Assembly (NCBI RefSeq): GCF_004340875.1
Contig: NZ_SLXQ01000007.1
Coordinates: 1-64,000, forward strand
DNA length: 64,000 bases
DNA from: Tamaricihabitans halophyticus
Lineage (GTDB): Bacteria; Actinomycetota; Actinomycetes; Mycobacteriales; Pseudonocardiaceae
Reading direction: 5' to 3'
A model generated the notes under the pieces. It was not told the DNA's origin. It worked only from the letters and a program-made list of their open reading frames with translations, and searched no databases. The position numbers and the translations under genes are program-made. How positions within the stretch are numbered: the stretch's first letter is position 1; the number at the start of each line of letters is the position of its first letter. This document shows positions 1,399 through 61,071 of the stretch, piece by piece.

Positions 1399-3264
1399 AT
1401 GTTCACGAATAGGGCCCAGCGTGGTCGCATGGCAAGCCTCACCGCCGTGACATCGATTGTCGGCATACTTGTCTTGGGCTTGTTCGCAGTGCCAAGTTAC
1501 GCCCAGGATGGGCGCGAGACGCAGGAGAAACTCGCGCCCGTCATGCTCGTCCTAGATGCCTCGGACTCGATGAACGGGGACGACCCGAGTGGCGGGAGCA
1601 AGCTGGATGCCGCCAAATCGGCACTCCGCAAGATGATTGACCAGCTGCCAGCCGAAGCGGAGGTCGGCCTCACCGTCTACGGGAGCGAGGCCGAAGTCTC
1701 GGATGAGCAAGCTTCTTGCGCCGACATCAAGACGGCCTTCGAGGTCGCACCGATGGACCGGGACGGAATGCGGTCCGCCGTGGACGATATCGACGCGCGT
1801 GGCTGGACACCGATCGGCGGCTCACTCGAGCACGCCGCGGCTGAGCTGCCCGACGAGGGACCCCGCTCCATCGTGTTGATCTCGGACGGAGCGGAAACCT
1901 GCGCGCCGCCCGAGGCGTGCGAAGCTGCCAAGAGTCTGGGCCATGCCGGGGTCGAGTTGAAGATGCACGCGGTTGGCTTTGATATCGACGAAGCCGGTCG
2001 TAATGAGCTGGAGTGTATTGCCGAAGCTGGCGACGGTGACTACGTGGATGCTCCGGATGCCGGCACACTTGAAGAGGAACTGCCGAAGATCGCCGAACGC
2101 GCGCTACGCGTCTACGAATCCGAAGGCATTCGGGTGCGGGGAACCGAGACCCTCAACAAGGCCCCGGAGCTGCGGCCGGGGCAGTACCTGGATCGGATCG
2201 GAACGGGCGCGGCCCGCTATTACCGCGTTGACGTGCCGGACGGGATGGGCGTCCACGCGGCGGCCACCCTGATTCGACCGGCTGATGAGGGGCAGGGTGG
2301 TACCGCCGCATCCTATGTGGACTTGAAGCTGATCAACCGGAACGACGACCAGTGCGACAGTGACCGGGTCGTGGACAGTGATATGAACTGGACGTCGCAC
2401 AACACGCCATCCGTCTACGCCGATATCTCGGAGGACGCGGACTGCTACACCGGAGAAGGGCGGTACTTCCTTCGTGTTGAGCGAGGCGACTCGGGCCGCG
2501 CGGAAGGTGAGCGGGACATCGAGATCCTAGTCGCCTTCGAGCCACCGGCGCGTGGGGAACAGACGTCCTCGACGGAGGAGGTGCCGTTCGCGGAGCCGAG
2601 CGGACAAGCTCAGGAAGCCGTCGGCGGTAGCTCATTCAACAAAGCCACCGAATTGACCGGTAGTGGCATCTACACTGACCGGATCGGGTATGGCGAGGCC
2701 GCGTTCTATCGAGTGCCCCTGGACTGGGGACAGGGGTTGTCCTATCAAGTGCATTTCGGTGACTCCGGAACTCAGGGCATCACCAATATGTTGACCAGGG
2801 TGTACAACCCGGTCCGTGCTAACGGGTATGACCTCGGCGCCACTGGTGCCTACGGAGGTAGGTCGACCGAACTCGGTCCGATCCAGACCGCGCCCGTCTA
2901 TCACGGAAACCGGGAGTCCGGCAGCATCGAGGCCGAAGTGGCGAGTCTCGCCGGCGACTACTACATCATGGTCCAGCTCGCGCATCCGCGCATGGATGAC
3001 ACCCCAATCGACATCGACTTCGAGCTCACCCTGAACATCACCGGGCAACCCTCGGATCCGCCGCAGTACGCGAAGGTGAAGGACTACCCGGCCGAGGTGA
3101 TGTATGACCTGGTCGCCAACACCGCCGCGGTACGCGTGGACGGCGTGACGACGACAAGTAGGCCAGCGCTGCTGGTTGGAATCGGCGCGGGAGTCGCCAT
3201 CCTGGGGCTCGGTGCGTTCGGCCTGCGGTTGTGGTTGCGTAGCAGGCGAAGCGGAGCGGCCTAG
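1399..3264 (+). CDS. Secreted, C-terminally anchored von Willebrand A domain protein
   Basis: The protein has 621 residues. A signal peptide covers about residues 1-35, with probable cleavage after SYA. A VWA domain runs from about residue 46 to 230. The metal-ion-dependent adhesion site is DASDS at residues 53-57, followed by a TPIGG loop and LISDGAE. After this come about 350 residues of Asp/Gly-rich beta-like sequence containing two related stretches that start near KAPELRPGQYLDRIG and KATELTGSGIYTDRIG, which suggests a duplicated domain. One transmembrane helix (about 591-612) and a basic tail (LRSRRSG) would anchor it with the bulk outside the cell. No strong ribosome binding site precedes ATG 1399; ATG 1429 (residue 11) is an alternative. 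It has no operon partner. A surface adhesion or sensing role is plausible, but the ligand is unknown. Confidence 0.82.
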   Translation: MFTNRAQRGRMASLTAVTSIVGILVLGLFAVPSYAQDGRETQEKLAPVMLVLDASDSMNGDDPSGGSKLDAAKSALRKMIDQLPAEAEVGLTVYGSEAEVSDEQASCADIKTAFEVAPMDRDGMRSAVDDIDARGWTPIGGSLEHAAAELPDEGPRSIVLISDGAETCAPPEACEAAKSLGHAGVELKMHAVGFDIDEAGRNELECIAEAGDGDYVDAPDAGTLEEELPKIAERALRVYESEGIRVRGTETLNKAPELRPGQYLDRIGTGAARYYRVDVPDGMGVHAAATLIRPADEGQGGTAASYVDLKLINRNDDQCDSDRVVDSDMNWTSHNTPSVYADISEDADCYTGEGRYFLRVERGDSGRAEGERDIEILVAFEPPARGEQTSSTEEVPFAEPSGQAQEAVGGSSFNKATELTGSGIYTDRIGYGEAAFYRVPLDWGQGLSYQVHFGDSGTQGITNMLTRVYNPVRANGYDLGATGAYGGRSTELGPIQTAPVYHGNRESGSIEAEVASLAGDYYIMVQLAHPRMDDTPIDIDFELTLNITGQPSDPPQYAKVKDYPAEVMYDLVANTAAVRVDGVTTTSRPALLVGIGAGVAILGLGAFGLRLWLRSRRSGAA

Positions 3265-56233: not shown

Positions 56234-57424
56234 GTGACTACCACGGTGATTGGCGTGGACGGCGCCGAACTCGCGCCTGGCGCAGCCGAACTCCTCGGGC
56301 AGGCGTCGCTGATCGTCGGCGCGAGGAGATACCTGGATCAGTACGCGCCCGCTGGGGTGACGACCGTGGAGCTCGGCCCGCTGGAGCCAGCATTACATGA
56401 GCTCAGCGCGGCCGCGGGGGCATCAGTAGTGCTGGCCTCCGGCGATCCCGGCTTCTTCGGTATCGTCCGGGCACTGCGCGACTACGGACTGCGCCCAGCG
56501 GTCATTCCGGCTGTTTCGGCCGTCCAGCGACTCGTGGCGCGCTGTGGTCGGTCCTGGGACGATGTCGCGGTGGTCAGCGCGCACGGCCGAGACCTCGGCC
56601 CCGCGCTGAACGTCTGCCGGGCGCGGCGGAACACCGTGGTGCTGACGGCACCGGGGGCGGGGCCGGCCGAGTTGGCCGCTGGGCTAACCGGATGGCGACG
56701 TACGCTCACGGTAGCCGAACAGCTCGGCGCTGACACTGAAACCGTGTCCACGGTGGATCTTGCGGAGGCGTGCGCCAGGGTATGGGCAGAGCCGAATATC
56801 GTGTTGTGTCAAGCAGATCCGGAGGCAGTACCAGGTACCGGTTGGCATGCTGGTGGCGAACCCACCCCGCCGGCAGGTGGCTGGGCTCTGACCGAGGACG
56901 CCTTCATACATCGGGACGGGATGATCACCAAAGCCGAGGTCCGGGCGATGGCACTTGCCAAGCTTGGGCCACGGCCAGGGAGCATGGTCTGGGACGTCGG
57001 CGCCGGGTGCGGTTCGGTAGCCGTGGAGAGCGCGCGGCTCGGCGCGGCGACGATCGCCATCGAGCACGATCCGGTCCAATGTGTCCGGGTTGTCGCGAAC
57101 GCGAGCGCATTCGGTGTCGACGTGCGCGTTGTTGAAGCTGATGTGCTGGATGTAGCCGACGAGTTGCCAGCGCCGGACGCGGTTTTCGTGGGTGGCGGTG
57201 GATCCACGGTGATCGCAACCTGCGCGCGGCTTGGTGCCGAACGCGTCGTGGTGGCGTTGGCTTCCCTCGACCGCATCGCTCCCGCCAGGGAGACGCTGCG
57301 TGCCAATGGATACGCCGTATCGGGCGCGCAACTATCGACGGCCCGAATGGTCGATCTACCGAACGGCGGCAGTCGTCTTGCCGCCACTAATCCGATTACC
57401 TTGATCTGGGGGAGTAGCACGTGA
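56234..57424 (+). CDS. cobL: Bifunctional precorrin-6B (6Y) C5,15-methyltransferase/decarboxylase
   Basis: A 396-residue fusion. CbiE-like methyltransferase covers about residues 1-200 (IGVDGAELAPGAAELLGQAS, LASGDPGFFGIVRAL, VSAVQRLVARCGRSWDDVAVVSAHGR). CbiT-like decarboxylating methyltransferase covers about 205-396 (FIHRDGMITKAEVRAMALAKLGPRPGSMVWDVGAGCGSVAVE, then AVFVGGGGST). GTG 56234 is 69 bases after cobM, the largest gap in this part, and the RBS is weak. Its stop overlaps the next start. Confidence 0.93.
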   Translation: MTTTVIGVDGAELAPGAAELLGQASLIVGARRYLDQYAPAGVTTVELGPLEPALHELSAAAGASVVLASGDPGFFGIVRALRDYGLRPAVIPAVSAVQRLVARCGRSWDDVAVVSAHGRDLGPALNVCRARRNTVVLTAPGAGPAELAAGLTGWRRTLTVAEQLGADTETVSTVDLAEACARVWAEPNIVLCQADPEAVPGTGWHAGGEPTPPAGGWALTEDAFIHRDGMITKAEVRAMALAKLGPRPGSMVWDVGAGCGSVAVESARLGAATIAIEHDPVQCVRVVANASAFGVDVRVVEADVLDVADELPAPDAVFVGGGGSTVIATCARLGAERVVVALASLDRIAPARETLRANGYAVSGAQLSTARMVDLPNGGSRLAATNPITLIWGSST

Positions 57425-59172
57425 TCGCCCTGTTCGCCGTCACCCCATCCGGCAGGCAGGCCGCGGCCGCGCTCGCCGCGTATCTGGGCCCGGACGCCGC
57501 GGTGGTGGACGGTCCGCCGCGCGCGGGCATCGAACGGCTGTGGTCGAGATTGGACGCGGCGGTGTTCTTTCTGGCAGCCGGAGCCACGGTCCGTCTGATC
57601 GCCCCGCTGCTTCGAGACAAGCGAACCGACCCTGCGGTCATCTGCGTTGACGAGGCGCAGCGCTTCGCCGTGCCACTGGTTGGCGGTCACGCGGGCGGTG
57701 CGAATGACCTAGCCGAGCGCATCGCGTCGGCGCTGCTGGACTGCACGCCGGTGATCACGACCGCTTCCGACTCGGTCGGCGTTACACCACTCGATGAGTT
57801 GGTTGAGCAACTTGGTGCCGCGGTCGACGGTGATCTTGCCGGCTGTGGTGTCGCGTTACTCGGCGGCGAACCGATCCTGTTGCGTAATCCACTCGGATTT
57901 CCGTTGCCCGCCTTGCCAGACAACGTATCGGTAGACATCGCTGATCCCGAATGGACAATCGTCATCGACGACCGGGTACCTGCGAGGCCGGACGACCCGA
58001 GCGTGTTACGACTCGTTCCGCGGACAGTCGTCATCGGACTCGGCTCGGCACGCGGCGTGACCAGGACGGCCGTAGCCAACACCATCGCCGAGCTGCACGA
58101 GCGGGCGGGCTTGGATGCCCGCGCGGTGCGTGGTTTCGCAACGGTCGACCTGAAGGCTGATGAGCGTGGCATTATCGAAGCCGTTGGCGACTGGGGATTC
58201 TGGAACGGCGAGGGGCGTGCCGGCCTCCTTACCTATCCGGCTGAGACGCTCGCCGCGATCCCCGTTCCGAACCCGAGCTCGGTAGTGGAGTCCGAAGTGG
58301 GCACTCCGAGCGTGGCAGAAGCCTCGGCGCTGTGCGGCGCGGCCGAGCTTGGTGGCGCCAGGTCCGCTGAACTGGTCGCCGAGAAGATCAAGGGCGCGAA
58401 CGTCACGGCTGCGGCCGCCCGCGTTCGACCGCGTGGCAGGCTTGCGATCGTCGGCCTTGGACCGGGCGCGGCCGAGTTGCGGACCCCCAAGGCAGAGGCG
58501 GAGTTGCGGCGCGCGTCCACCATCGTCGGCCTTGACCAGTACGTGGATCAGATTCGGCCACTGTTGCGCAGAGGCACCGACGTACGTGCCAGTGGACTCG
58601 GTGACGAGGAGGCGCGAGCAGCGGAAGCTGTGGCGCTGGCCGCCGAAGGCCGATCGGTCGCGCTCATCGGCTCCGGTGATGCCGGGATCTATGCGATGGC
58701 AAGCCCCGCACTCGAACAGGCCGGTGCGGACATCGAAGTGGTGGGTGTGCCAGGTATCACGGCCGCACTCGCCGCGGCAGCGGCGCTGGGTGCGCCGCTT
58801 GGTCACGACCATGCGCTGATCAGCTTGTCGGATCTGCACACTCCCTGGGAGGCCATCGAACGCAGGGTGCGGGCCGCCGCCGAAGCCGATCTCGTGGTGT
58901 GTTTCTACAACCCCCGATCCGCGCAGCGTGATTGGCAACTGCGGTCCGCCCTACGGATTCTCGGCGCGCACCGGCCAGCGACCACCCCGGTCGGCGCGGT
59001 TCGGCAGGCGAGCCGGCACGGTGAACGGGTCTGGACCGAGCCGATCGCCGAGTTCGCCGTGGAGAACGTGGATATGCTCACCACCGTGCTGGTCGGCTCC
59101 TCACGGACGCAGATGGTCGCTGGACGAATGGTCACGCCACGCGGATACACCTGGATGCCCAGTACCGAGTAG
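57421..59172 (+). CDS. cobJ: CbiG-CobJ fusion: cobalt-precorrin-5A hydrolase and precorrin-3B C17-methyltransferase
   Basis: A 583-residue fusion. The CbiG-like half is about residues 1-320 (FFLAAGATVRLIAPLLRDK, VPLVGGHAGGANDLAERI, VIGLGSARGVTR, ATVDLKADERGIIE). It opens the ring lactone by extruding acetaldehyde in the anaerobic pathway. The CobJ half is about 340-583 (LAIVGLGPGAAELRTPKAEAEL, SGDAGIYAMASPALEQ, VPGITAALAAAAALGAPLGHD, YNPRSAQRDWQL), which methylates C17 with ring contraction. GTG 57421 overlaps cobL. A CbiG half argues for an early-cobalt or mixed route, since no cobG is here. Confidence 0.92.
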   Translation: MIALFAVTPSGRQAAAALAAYLGPDAAVVDGPPRAGIERLWSRLDAAVFFLAAGATVRLIAPLLRDKRTDPAVICVDEAQRFAVPLVGGHAGGANDLAERIASALLDCTPVITTASDSVGVTPLDELVEQLGAAVDGDLAGCGVALLGGEPILLRNPLGFPLPALPDNVSVDIADPEWTIVIDDRVPARPDDPSVLRLVPRTVVIGLGSARGVTRTAVANTIAELHERAGLDARAVRGFATVDLKADERGIIEAVGDWGFWNGEGRAGLLTYPAETLAAIPVPNPSSVVESEVGTPSVAEASALCGAAELGGARSAELVAEKIKGANVTAAAARVRPRGRLAIVGLGPGAAELRTPKAEAELRRASTIVGLDQYVDQIRPLLRRGTDVRASGLGDEEARAAEAVALAAEGRSVALIGSGDAGIYAMASPALEQAGADIEVVGVPGITAALAAAAALGAPLGHDHALISLSDLHTPWEAIERRVRAAAEADLVVCFYNPRSAQRDWQLRSALRILGAHRPATTPVGAVRQASRHGERVWTEPIAEFAVENVDMLTTVLVGSSRTQMVAGRMVTPRGYTWMPSTE

Positions 59173-59267
59173 GAATGTTTGGTATGCGTGGCCGTGGCCT
59201 GTGCGGTGTCAGCGAGTCGAACGTGGCGCTGCACACCTCAATTTGACCCGGCAGTGGTCGAGGGGCC

Positions 59268-59430
59268 AGGATGCGTAGGTCGGTAGCGGAGGAACCCGGT
59301 GTGAATCCGGGACGGTCCCGCCACTGTGACCGGGAAGCGGTCCCAACGTGAACGCCACGGCCAACTGGCTGGAAGGCATGGGATACGCGGTGATCCGGGA
59401 GTCAGGAAACTCCTGCCGACCCGTACGCGA
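59268..59430 (+). ncRNA. Cobalamin riboswitch
   Basis: The leader before cobH carries the conserved adenosylcobalamin core. A GGAACCCGGTGTGAATCCGG-like stem is followed by ACGGTCCCGCCACTGTGA (B12 box GCCACTG at 59320-59326). Further on comes GAGTCAGGAAACTCCTGCCGAC at about 59399-59420. Boundaries are approximate. It lies inside the cob cluster, between cbiG/cobJ and cobH. A downstream structure may mask the GGGAGG at 59468-59473 when the ligand is bound. Confidence 0.9.
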
Positions 59431-59477
59431 CCGCGTGCGGCCTGAGTCCCCTAGGGCGCGGTAACCCGGGAGGTCTT

Positions 59478-59555
59478 GTGCCACTGCTGTGTCTTGATGC
59501 TGCGCACCGAATGGTGGGTGGCGCGCGAAGTCCCTATGGGGGCGGGCGCCCGTGA
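59478..59555 (+). CDS. Possible 25-codon leader ORF coupled to cobH
   Basis: GTG 59478 is placed 4 bases after GGGAGG (59468-59473) and opens a 25-codon frame (MPLLCLDAAHRMVGGARSPY and so on). Its TGA (59553-59555) overlaps the GTG of cobH by 4 bases. It is the best ribosome binding site after the riboswitch; cobH itself has none. It may be a coupling peptide that passes riboswitch control to cobH, or the remnant of a lost gene. Coding function is not proven. Confidence 0.45.
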   Translation: MPLLCLDAAHRMVGGARSPYGGGRP

Positions 59556-60157
59556 GACGCGTTGTGCATCCCATCGAAACCGAGTCGTACCAGATCCTGC
59601 GCTCCCGGGTCGATACCGCCGAGCTGCCCGCGCTGTGCCGCGCGGCGGTCGAACGAATCGTGCACACCACGGCTGACCCGACCTGGGTGGGCGATGTGGT
59701 GGCCGAGGAATCAGCGCTGTCCGCCGGCGTGACCGCGCTGCGGGCCGGCGTACCCGTCGTTACCGATGTGCGCATGGTGGCCGCCGGGATTACCGCGCAC
59801 GAGACCGTCATCGCATTGGACCTACCTGGAGTCGCCGAACTGGCCAGCGAAGCCGACCTCACGCGATCAGCCGCCGGTATCCGGTTGGCCGCGCGGCACT
59901 GGCCAGCCGGCGCGGTCTGGGCGATCGGTAATGCGCCGACGGCGCTCGCCGAGTTGGTTCGGTTGACGGTGGCGGGCGCCGTTCGGCCCGCGCTCGTCGT
60001 CGGCGTGCCAGTGGGGTTTGTCGGGGCTGTCGAGTCCAAAGCCGCCCTGCGAACGGCGGGGATCGCGGCACTGTCCACAAGGACCGAACGCGGTGGGGCC
60101 GCGGTGGCCGCCGCCGCGGTGAACGCGCTGCTTTACTTCGAGGAACAGGAGAATTAG
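59552..60157 (+). CDS. cobH: Precorrin-8X methylmutase
   Basis: A 201-residue CobH/CbiC enzyme that moves the methyl group from C11 to C12, giving (hydrogeno)byrinate. Signature segments are the N-terminal HPIETESYQILRSRVD, with the conserved His at residue 6 as likely acid/base, RIVHTTADPTW, VVTDVRMVAAGI, AIGNAPTAL and LVVGVPVGFVGAVESK. GTG 59552 has no good ribosome binding site of its own and overlaps the leader ORF stop. Its stop shares one base with the next start. Confidence 0.92.
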   Translation: MRRVVHPIETESYQILRSRVDTAELPALCRAAVERIVHTTADPTWVGDVVAEESALSAGVTALRAGVPVVTDVRMVAAGITAHETVIALDLPGVAELASEADLTRSAAGIRLAARHWPAGAVWAIGNAPTALAELVRLTVAGAVRPALVVGVPVGFVGAVESKAALRTAGIAALSTRTERGGAAVAAAAVNALLYFEEQEN

Positions 60158-61071
60158 TGAAACCGCCATTGTTGCTGGTAGGACACGGTACCGTCGCGGA
60201 AACCGGAGTGCGCCAGTTCGACACGTTCGTGTCCCGGATGCGAGCCAGGATGGCGCCGTCCGGAGTGGACGTGGCCGGCGGGTTCATTGAGCTGTCCGCG
60301 CCGGCCGTCACGGAAGCCTGGGGTGAGCTGGTCCGCGGTGGCCACCGCACGGTGGCCGCGGTGCCGCTGGTTCTGGTGGCCGCCGGGCACGGCAAAGGGG
60401 ACATCCCAGCCGCGCTGGAACGGGAGGTCCGCCGCCATCCGGGTACCTCCTACGAGTTCGGTCGACCACTCGGGCCGCATCCGACACTGCTTGACCTGCT
60501 TGACGAGCGGATCGCGGCCACGCTCGACCGTGAGCAGTGGTCCGAGACCGCTGTCCTGCTGGTGGGCCGCGGATCGACGGATCCGGACGCGAACGCGGAG
60601 GTGTGCAAGGTCGCGCGGCTGCTGCAGGAAACGCGGGAGTTCTCCTTCGTGGAGGCGGGCTTCGTATCGTTGGCATGGCCATCGGTAGCGGAGGGCTTGG
60701 AGCGGATCCGCCGGCTCGGTGCGAAGCGAGTCGTCGTGGCCCCGTACTTCCTTTTCGATGGGGTACTTCCGCAGCGGGTCGTCGAGCAGGCCACCGCGTA
60801 CGGCCAGTCGAACCCGGAACTGCCAGTGCATATCGCGGAGTATCTCGGTGATTGCGCCGGCCTGGCGGATCTCGTAGTGGAGCGCTACGAAGAGGCCCTG
60901 CGCGGAGACATCCGGATGAACTGCGATACCTGTGCCTATCGGGTGCTCCTGCCGGGCTTCGACGACAAACTCGGCGCACCGCAGACCCCGCATCACCATC
61001 CGGACGACCCTGCCGGCAACGGCCACGGGCATGGGCACGGCCACGGGCATGGCCATGTGCACCTCGGATAA
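60157..61071 (+). CDS. cbiX: CbiX-like sirohydrochlorin cobalt/ferrochelatase with tandem domains
   Basis: A 304-residue chelatase with two CbiX-type halves: about 1-120 (LLLVGHGTVAE with His10, VLVAAGHGKGDIP with His78) and about 125-250 (AVLLVGRGSTDPDANAEVC, VVVAPYFLFDGVLPQRV). A CxxC pair (Cys256, Cys259; NCDTCAYR) follows, then a His-rich tail (about 275-302, alternating Gly-His). The tail may bind cobalt or nickel; the cysteines recall Fe-S-carrying CbiX of some bacteria. AGGAG lies just upstream of GTG 60157. It inserts the metal into sirohydrochlorin, the entry point of the early-cobalt route. Confidence 0.87.
   Translation: MKPPLLLVGHGTVAETGVRQFDTFVSRMRARMAPSGVDVAGGFIELSAPAVTEAWGELVRGGHRTVAAVPLVLVAAGHGKGDIPAALEREVRRHPGTSYEFGRPLGPHPTLLDLLDERIAATLDREQWSETAVLLVGRGSTDPDANAEVCKVARLLQETREFSFVEAGFVSLAWPSVAEGLERIRRLGAKRVVVAPYFLFDGVLPQRVVEQATAYGQSNPELPVHIAEYLGDCAGLADLVVERYEEALRGDIRMNCDTCAYRVLLPGFDDKLGAPQTPHHHPDDPAGNGHGHGHGHGHGHVHLG

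Follow-up and report, generated by a model that had tools for sequence, protein, structure and literature searches.

Organization of the cobH locus

The window analyzed here comprises bases 1-64000 of contig 7 of a 6.39-Mb genome assembled in 50 contigs. Within it, a predicted cobalamin riboswitch lies between a cbiG-cobJ fusion gene and cobH, and a short leader ORF separates the riboswitch from cobH (Table 1). For the cobH product, the NCBIfam equivalogs score under their cut-offs. An earlier note on this DNA had assigned a GGGAGG ribosome binding site to a GTG-initiated ORF of 25 codons that overlaps the cobH start by 4 bases, and the coordinates of the site, the ORF and the GTGA overlap were all confirmed.

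An in-frame stop at 59495 closes the cobH frame, so the Shine-Dalgarno (SD) sequence of the expression platform cannot serve a cobH start. The platform SD serves the short ORF instead, and the overlap is out of frame and 4 nt long, as in the uPPE2-PPE2 arrangement of Mycobacterium tuberculosis.

Table 1. Features of the cobH locus and their positions in the window
Feature	Position	Strand	Basis or remark
cbiG-cobJ fusion	57421..59172	+	upstream of riboswitch; TIGR01466 above cut-off, CbiG_N and CbiG_C
Promoter-like element	59242..59272	+	TTTGACC 59242-59248, CAGGAT 59267-59272; by eye
Cobalamin riboswitch aptamer (predicted)	59264..59434	+	RF00174, 85.2 bits, E 1.4e-19
L5 (CCCGC), putative kissing-loop half	59317..59321	+	sequence; L5/L13 covariation over type A loci
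Expression platform, P13 hairpin, 3' side running into SD	59447..59473	+	predicted fold; alignment with six other cobH-linked loci
L13 loop CGCGGTAA	59457-59464	+	within P13 hairpin of platform
SD sequence GGGAGG of leader ORF	59468..59473	+	-10.9 kcal/mol, assumed anti-SD
25-codon leader ORF (candidate stub first cistron), GTG 59478, TGA 59553-59555	59478..59555	+	
GTGA stop/start overlap	59552..59555	+	cobH GTG 59552 out of frame with leader ORF
cobH, precorrin-8X methylmutase	59552..60157	+	Pfam CbiC 193.2 bits
CbiX-like chelatase gene	60157..61071	+	directly after cobH; Pfam CbiX 151.8 bits

Cobalamin riboswitch and expression platform

The aptamer match spans the full RF00174 model (1-189), exceeds the gathering score of 31.5, and is the sole Rfam match at gathering score within the 64-kb window. 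This match bears out the proposal that a cobalamin riboswitch stands ahead of the leader ORF, and 59264-59434 is predicted to be that riboswitch. The TTTGACC of the promoter-like element was identical in all seven aligned cobH-linked loci, while the second element read AGGAT in five of them and AAGAT in two. Sigma-70 consensus promoter scans returned 0 sites, and a consensus scan of the leader for intrinsic terminators found 0.

The SD sequence lies directly 3' of the P13/L13 hairpin, and part of it is base-paired in the folds predicted for the window platform and for that of the genus relative (locus L089). Fold energies of the riboswitch with its platform were those of shuffled sequences. 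When the window platform was folded alone, 193 of 200 shuffles did at least as well (z 1.53), and the L089 platform alone gave a z of -0.74.

Our survey of riboswitches in the order covered 168 loci, a non-random set from the best-scoring matches listed, with L089 added by hand; one part of it consisted mainly of short aptamers chosen to favour type A. We dropped L219 and L226 (contig ends) as well as L227, L229, L272 and L273 (duplicates). The division into type A and type B was made by motif and is our own, and type A includes partial matches. The motif complementary to L5 was then sought in the 60 nt after the aptamer of the 78 type A loci. An L5 of CCTCG went with CGAGG in 17 loci and with the other motif in none, and CCCGC went with GCGG in 18 loci vs 5 (Fisher p 3e-7, with relatedness ignored, on 40 of the 78 loci). 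The others carried both downstream motifs (16), neither (7), another L5 (2) or no L5 call (13). L5 and L13 of the window are complementary; at L089, a CGAGG loop accompanies an L5 of CCCGC, giving a mismatched kissing loop.

The window genome has seven RF00174 matches (L001-L007), six of them above the cut-off. Judged by eye, its other riboswitches precede cobN, an nrd-type reductase, metE and genes of B12-uptake type. Within this genome, the cobH locus is the only one at which a short ORF combines a strong SD with a 4-nt overlap; L006 has such an overlapping ORF with a middling SD.

Ribosome binding sites and the stop/start overlap

We next consider how strongly the candidate starts pair with the anti-SD, whose sequence was assumed because a 16S tail pattern sought in the assembly gave no match. 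The leader GTG pairs at -10.9 kcal/mol, GTG 59489 (which opens 2 codons) reaches the same SD at -10.0 kcal/mol, and the cobH GTG pairs at -8.4 kcal/mol through a G-run at 59538-59542. Among 4991 ATG, GTG and TTG triplets on both strands of the window, 0.22% equal -10.9 or better, and 1.9% do so for -8.4. The earlier note held that the only good ribosome binding site is that of the leader and that cobH has none. The leader site was indeed the best, but "no ribosome binding site" is too strong for cobH in view of its G-run.

The overlap at one locus is weak evidence, since short ORFs ending in NTGA overlaps are common anyway. When the interior was shuffled, the chance of an open ORF in the right frame was 0.20 in the window and 0.25 in the relative, conditional on an A following the start codon. 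Conservation of the arrangement is better evidence than the overlap itself. Among type A short ORFs (up to 60 codons), NTGA overlaps occurred in 9/25 with a strong SD (counted by start; 8 loci), 10/18 with a middling SD and 14/81 with a weak SD or none; the corresponding fractions for type B were 1/8, 16/40 and 32/93. The idea that NTGA overlaps are generally enriched after platform SDs was rejected, as no clear enrichment by SD strength emerged, and we draw no support from this tally.

The possibility that structure occludes the cobH start was also considered and found no support: against a background of 0.35 (sd 0.09), the mean unpaired value was 0.29 for the window and 0.56 for the relative. 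Compared with shuffled folds, the overlap region of L089 folded better (z -2.78), and that of the window gave a z of -0.93.

Conservation in the second genome of the genus

The genus is represented by two genomes, with completeness of 98.67% and about 91%. Locus L089 of the other genome (G001) is identical to L008, on MAG contig WHSZ01000041.1, over the approximately 1,590 bases compared. The predicted riboswitch, platform, SD, ORF and overlap are read in both genomes (2/2), with a GTG-CCA start in each. The platform CCCCTAGGGCG.GG.AACCCGGGAGGTC and GTGCCA are common to the window and L089, and the remainder of the ORF has diverged. The ORF of the relative has 19 or 20 codons and ends in an ATGA overlap on a cobH ATG. 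Its start pairs at -11.0 kcal/mol, or at -9.7 at the first of two GTGs, and its cobH start pairs at -4.2 kcal/mol, or at -3.7 with a narrower pairing window.

The distance from start to overlap differs between the two loci by 15 or 18 nt, both multiples of 3. Conservation of the leader ORF length in relatives, put forward earlier as a check, did not hold (25 vs 19 or 20 codons). What is kept in the relative is the start, the SD and the overlap; what is not kept is the peptide sequence and its length. Since the peptides are unlike in both respects, it would be translation as such that matters and not its product. The joint chance of the arrangement in both genomes is about 0.05 (from 0.20 and 0.25, if independent), so that conservation in two genomes is moderate evidence, not proof.

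In the relative, the riboswitch is immediately preceded by a stretch that resembles ferredoxin (CxxCGxCxxxCP; L089 about 1010-1210; L008 about 2010-2210), and by eye none was seen at the corresponding place in the window.

Loci with nicT in place of the leader ORF

In Solihabitans fulvus (L009), Gandjariella thermophila (L013) and Saccharopolyspora-type genomes (L011, L097 and L101), the riboswitch, the platform and TTTGACC align with those of the window. In all five, the platform SD starts a gene of 350-362 aa. The products of L009 and L013 are Ni/Co transporters of the HoxN/HupN/NixA type (Pfam NicO, 228.9 and 225.4 bits; TIGR00802, 342.8 and 344.1 against a cut-off of 333.05), and the NicT equivalog NF052500 scored below its cut-off. 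We use the name nicT for this gene; the other 11 loci were found by similarity to the L013 product. Of the 13 nicT-cobH loci, 7 offer a cobH start that overlaps the nicT stop by 4 nt, and among these L011 has an alternative cobH start 38 nt downstream. In the remaining loci, an ATG lies 18 nt past the first base of the stop (5 loci) or 46 nt past it (1 locus).

Another 11 loci were grouped on the absence of an intervening cistron, and in these the platform SD serves cobH directly (-8.9 to -11.0 kcal/mol). Five loci of this layout are named, four from Pseudonocardia and one from a Pseudonocardiales MAG. In 10 of the 11, cobH is preceded by a short riboswitch match that exceeds the curated score; L104 was scanned and fell below the score. 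Such matches, of 57-75 nt and 31.8-36 bits, stand before cobH in L010, L012, L014, L015, L052, L103, L106, L108, L109 and L113. A narrow B12-box pattern had missed the shorter riboswitches, and the later scan matched 18 of 20 loci, L104 and L116 being the two unmatched.

A search for nicT found none in either genome of the genus, and the same search was positive in 4/4 others. We then placed the loci on a CobH tree of 46 rows, drawn from 19 of 80 loci and from 27 of the 30 loci of a second set. Omitted or redundant loci, mostly from Streptomyces, account for the 61 of 80 left out, and L089, L090 and L091 were left out as repeats of L008, L013 and L011. Layouts, assigned from sequence, were nicT in 13 rows, direct in 11, uORF in 2 and other in 20. 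The sister group of the uORF pair (95/73) is a clade of 20 rows (95/80), which contains every one of the 13 nicT loci plus 7 rows with a different layout, and the two together form a clade at 100/97. The stub appears to hold the place that, in related genera, the nicT cistron occupies after this platform and ahead of cobH.

Remains of nicT were found at L115 (G037), a locus outside the uORF and nicT clades, between a riboswitch at 2444-2601 (- strand) and cobH. A C-terminal stretch of about 65 residues is 36-59% identical to intact nicT, with E 1e-11 or better among the matches listed, and ends in GTGA at cobH. A short stretch resembling the nicT N-terminus lies in another frame behind the platform SD; since the E-values are generous (26 of 50 shuffles reached 0.01), this N-terminal stretch alone is not significant. 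A stricter nicT similarity search missed L115. L115 is predicted to carry a decaying first cistron in another genus.

Residual nicT sequence within the stubs themselves was sought with 36 local alignments of both ORFs against the N-terminus, C-terminus and whole of three nicT genes, as protein and as DNA. The results gave no support: p values of 0.008 and 0.014 fell on one match (L089 vs L011), and all others were at least 0.12. The simplest history is that nicT was lost and a minimal first cistron retained, with transfer as the alternative.

Short ORFs behind other riboswitches of the order

The 78 type A loci were tallied row by row, with L002 counted as a gene. No SD-led start was present 5-85 nt after the aptamer in 20 of them, 24 open an ORF of at most 60 codons, 11 open an ORF of 61-71 aa (CbtB-like by eye), and 23 start a gene. 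At nine of the 24, the end of the short ORF overlaps a gene-like ORF by 4 nt, namely cobH (2), cobM (4, L162 being assigned by TIGR01465), cobN (L266), a DUF364 protein gene (L181) and a solute-binding protein gene (L270). L123 would be a tenth overlapping locus if its other start were chosen.

The cobM loci considered were L162, L163, L180, L204 and L284-L291. Of the 30 loci found, 8 were examined, and the remaining matches of the cobM search lay mostly within the aptamer alone. A GTGA overlap was present in 8/8 genomes examined, from two genera, behind ORFs of 9, 13, 17 or 18 codons, and the overlap position shifts along with the cobM start.

Several further groups were observed. In L188, L205, L258, L277 and L187, the riboswitch is followed by an ORF of 15-21 codons, which begins with MRI.PAC in 4/5. 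The L205 gene is predicted to encode a methylmalonate-semialdehyde dehydrogenase (TIGR01722 above cut-off), and those of L187 and L188 are alike by eye. L143, L145, L157, L181, L200, L215, L270 and L271 have a near-identical platform, GGGGTCGCGGAGCCCC then GGAGGAGG, leading to ATG, GTG or TTG in 8/8, with ORFs of 18-38 codons that are unlike in sequence. L249, L250 and L252 have ORFs of 31-49 codons that all begin with MTHGVSF; these seem to precede a gene that is cobN-like by eye, which they do not overlap.

Discussion

The feature at the cobH locus is real, and the mechanism first suggested for it, ligand control acting on the leader ORF and reaching cobH by coupling, is plausible. We propose a translational B12 OFF switch that acts on a stub first cistron, with cobH translated by termination-reinitiation, and we put the probability of this reading at roughly two in three. 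Without ligand, the SD at 59468-59473 would be free and ribosomes would translate the 25-codon ORF; after terminating at TGA 59553-59555, they would start again at the cobH GTG that overlaps this stop. Binding of adenosylcobalamin would cause the P13 hairpin, with its L5-L13 kissing loop, to sequester the SD, so that the stub would go untranslated and cobH would be silenced along with it. The riboswitch, SD, ORF, overlap and platform and their conservation are read from the sequence, whereas we infer every dynamic step of this relay. Control through the leader ORF with coupling to cobH is the best-supported reading because of the position of the SD beside P13/L13, the conservation in the genus, the nicT-cobH loci of related genera and the ppe2 experiment; a conserved peptide does not form part of it.

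The relay itself has been demonstrated for uPPE2-PPE2 of M. tuberculosis, where the SD, the start codon and the overlap are needed and the products are mostly separate (PMC11260477). There, as here, the SD within the platform of a B12 aptamer belongs to a short out-of-frame ORF, L13 lies beside that SD, and the ORF overlaps the main gene by a 4-nt NTGA (PMC11260477). Both are read as OFF switches, shown by experiment for uPPE2 and proposed here from sequence. No obvious SD precedes ppe2 (PMC11260477), and the cobH start pairs at -8.4 kcal/mol in the window and at between -3.7 and -4.2 kcal/mol in the genus relative. The two systems differ in their main gene, ppe2 there and cobH here, where relatives have nicT in place of the leader ORF. 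They differ also in the aptamer, which for ppe2 is described without the P8-P12 extension (PMC11260477) and here spans positions 1 to 189 of RF00174.

Two other systems share part of the layout, as far as the accessible portions of their reports describe them. In the M. tuberculosis pe20 Mbox, a small upstream ORF (rv1805A) is likewise the direct riboswitch target, whereas the aptamer senses magnesium, the peptide is conserved and termination is Rho-dependent; an overlap relay is not among the features described there (PMC12810186). In ATGA/TGATG gene pairs, the stop/start overlap is also a coupling device for termination-reinitiation, but this concerns genes in general, and a riboswitch is not among the features described in that text (Huber et al. 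2019, PMC6728339). A B12 riboswitch-uORF relay besides that of M. tuberculosis was not found in a search of the open-access literature, with subscription journals and preprints outside its scope.

Translation of the leader might be needed without any handing on of ribosomes, by blocking Rho or by melting structure so that fresh ribosomes start at cobH. The cobH G-run would allow such starts, and the consensus scan gave no intrinsic terminator in the leader; Rho-dependent termination occurs in the M. tuberculosis Mbox leader, according to the text available (PMC12810186), and Rho is discussed for metE in the ppe2 report (PMC11260477). We nevertheless consider this explanation unlikely: pairing around the cobH start is nothing out of the ordinary, and the effects of moved stops in ppe2 were taken by the authors, in the part of their report consulted, as evidence against Rho and for a tight overlap (PMC11260477).

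The ORF might also be a neutral leftover of nicT without a role, cobH being started independently or by readthrough from cbiG-cobJ. An unconserved peptide, an overlap that by itself is within chance, and the frame-broken, decayed nicT of L115 would all fit a leftover. This is decidedly improbable in our judgment, as both species retain the SD, start and overlap although the ORF interiors have diverged, the length change is a multiple of 3, and without the ORF nothing would be left for the platform SD to serve, with the in-frame stop shutting cobH off. That the peptide itself acts, by sequence-dependent stalling or attenuation, is very improbable, for the cobH-linked pair has little in common beyond the start and the cobM group ORFs range from 9 to 18 codons, even though common first residues occur elsewhere (MTHGVSF in L249, L250 and L252; MRI.PAC in L188, L205, L258 and L277).

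To return to termination-reinitiation from a stub, a further reading concerns its origin and spread. The 25-codon ORF may be a stub that selection kept after the loss of nicT, with cobH needing handed-over ribosomes, and such stub relays may be recurrent behind the B12 riboswitches of the order, before cobM, cobN, DUF364 and solute-binding genes. This reading as a whole is tentative, with odds that we place slightly under even. Overlapping short ORFs also occur often where the SD is weaker and after type B riboswitches, which speaks against over-reading the wider layout.

A relay of this kind is already known from uPPE2-PPE2; what is new is that it would operate outside Mycobacterium, in another family, before a core B12 synthesis gene, and that its likely origin is visible. 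For ppe2, Kipkorir et al. (2024) speculate that ppe2 invaded the locus (PMC11260477). The relatives examined here suggest a likely opposite route, in which a full first gene was lost and its translational role kept. The added value lies in the comparative series of nicT first, stub first and cobH first, together with a decayed nicT, which lets one test why a riboswitch drives a nearly empty cistron. It also cautions that the nearest annotated gene need not be the target of a riboswitch. If stub relays are truly recurrent, the path from riboswitch to uORF to gene would be a general layout in the order and not an oddity of ppe2.
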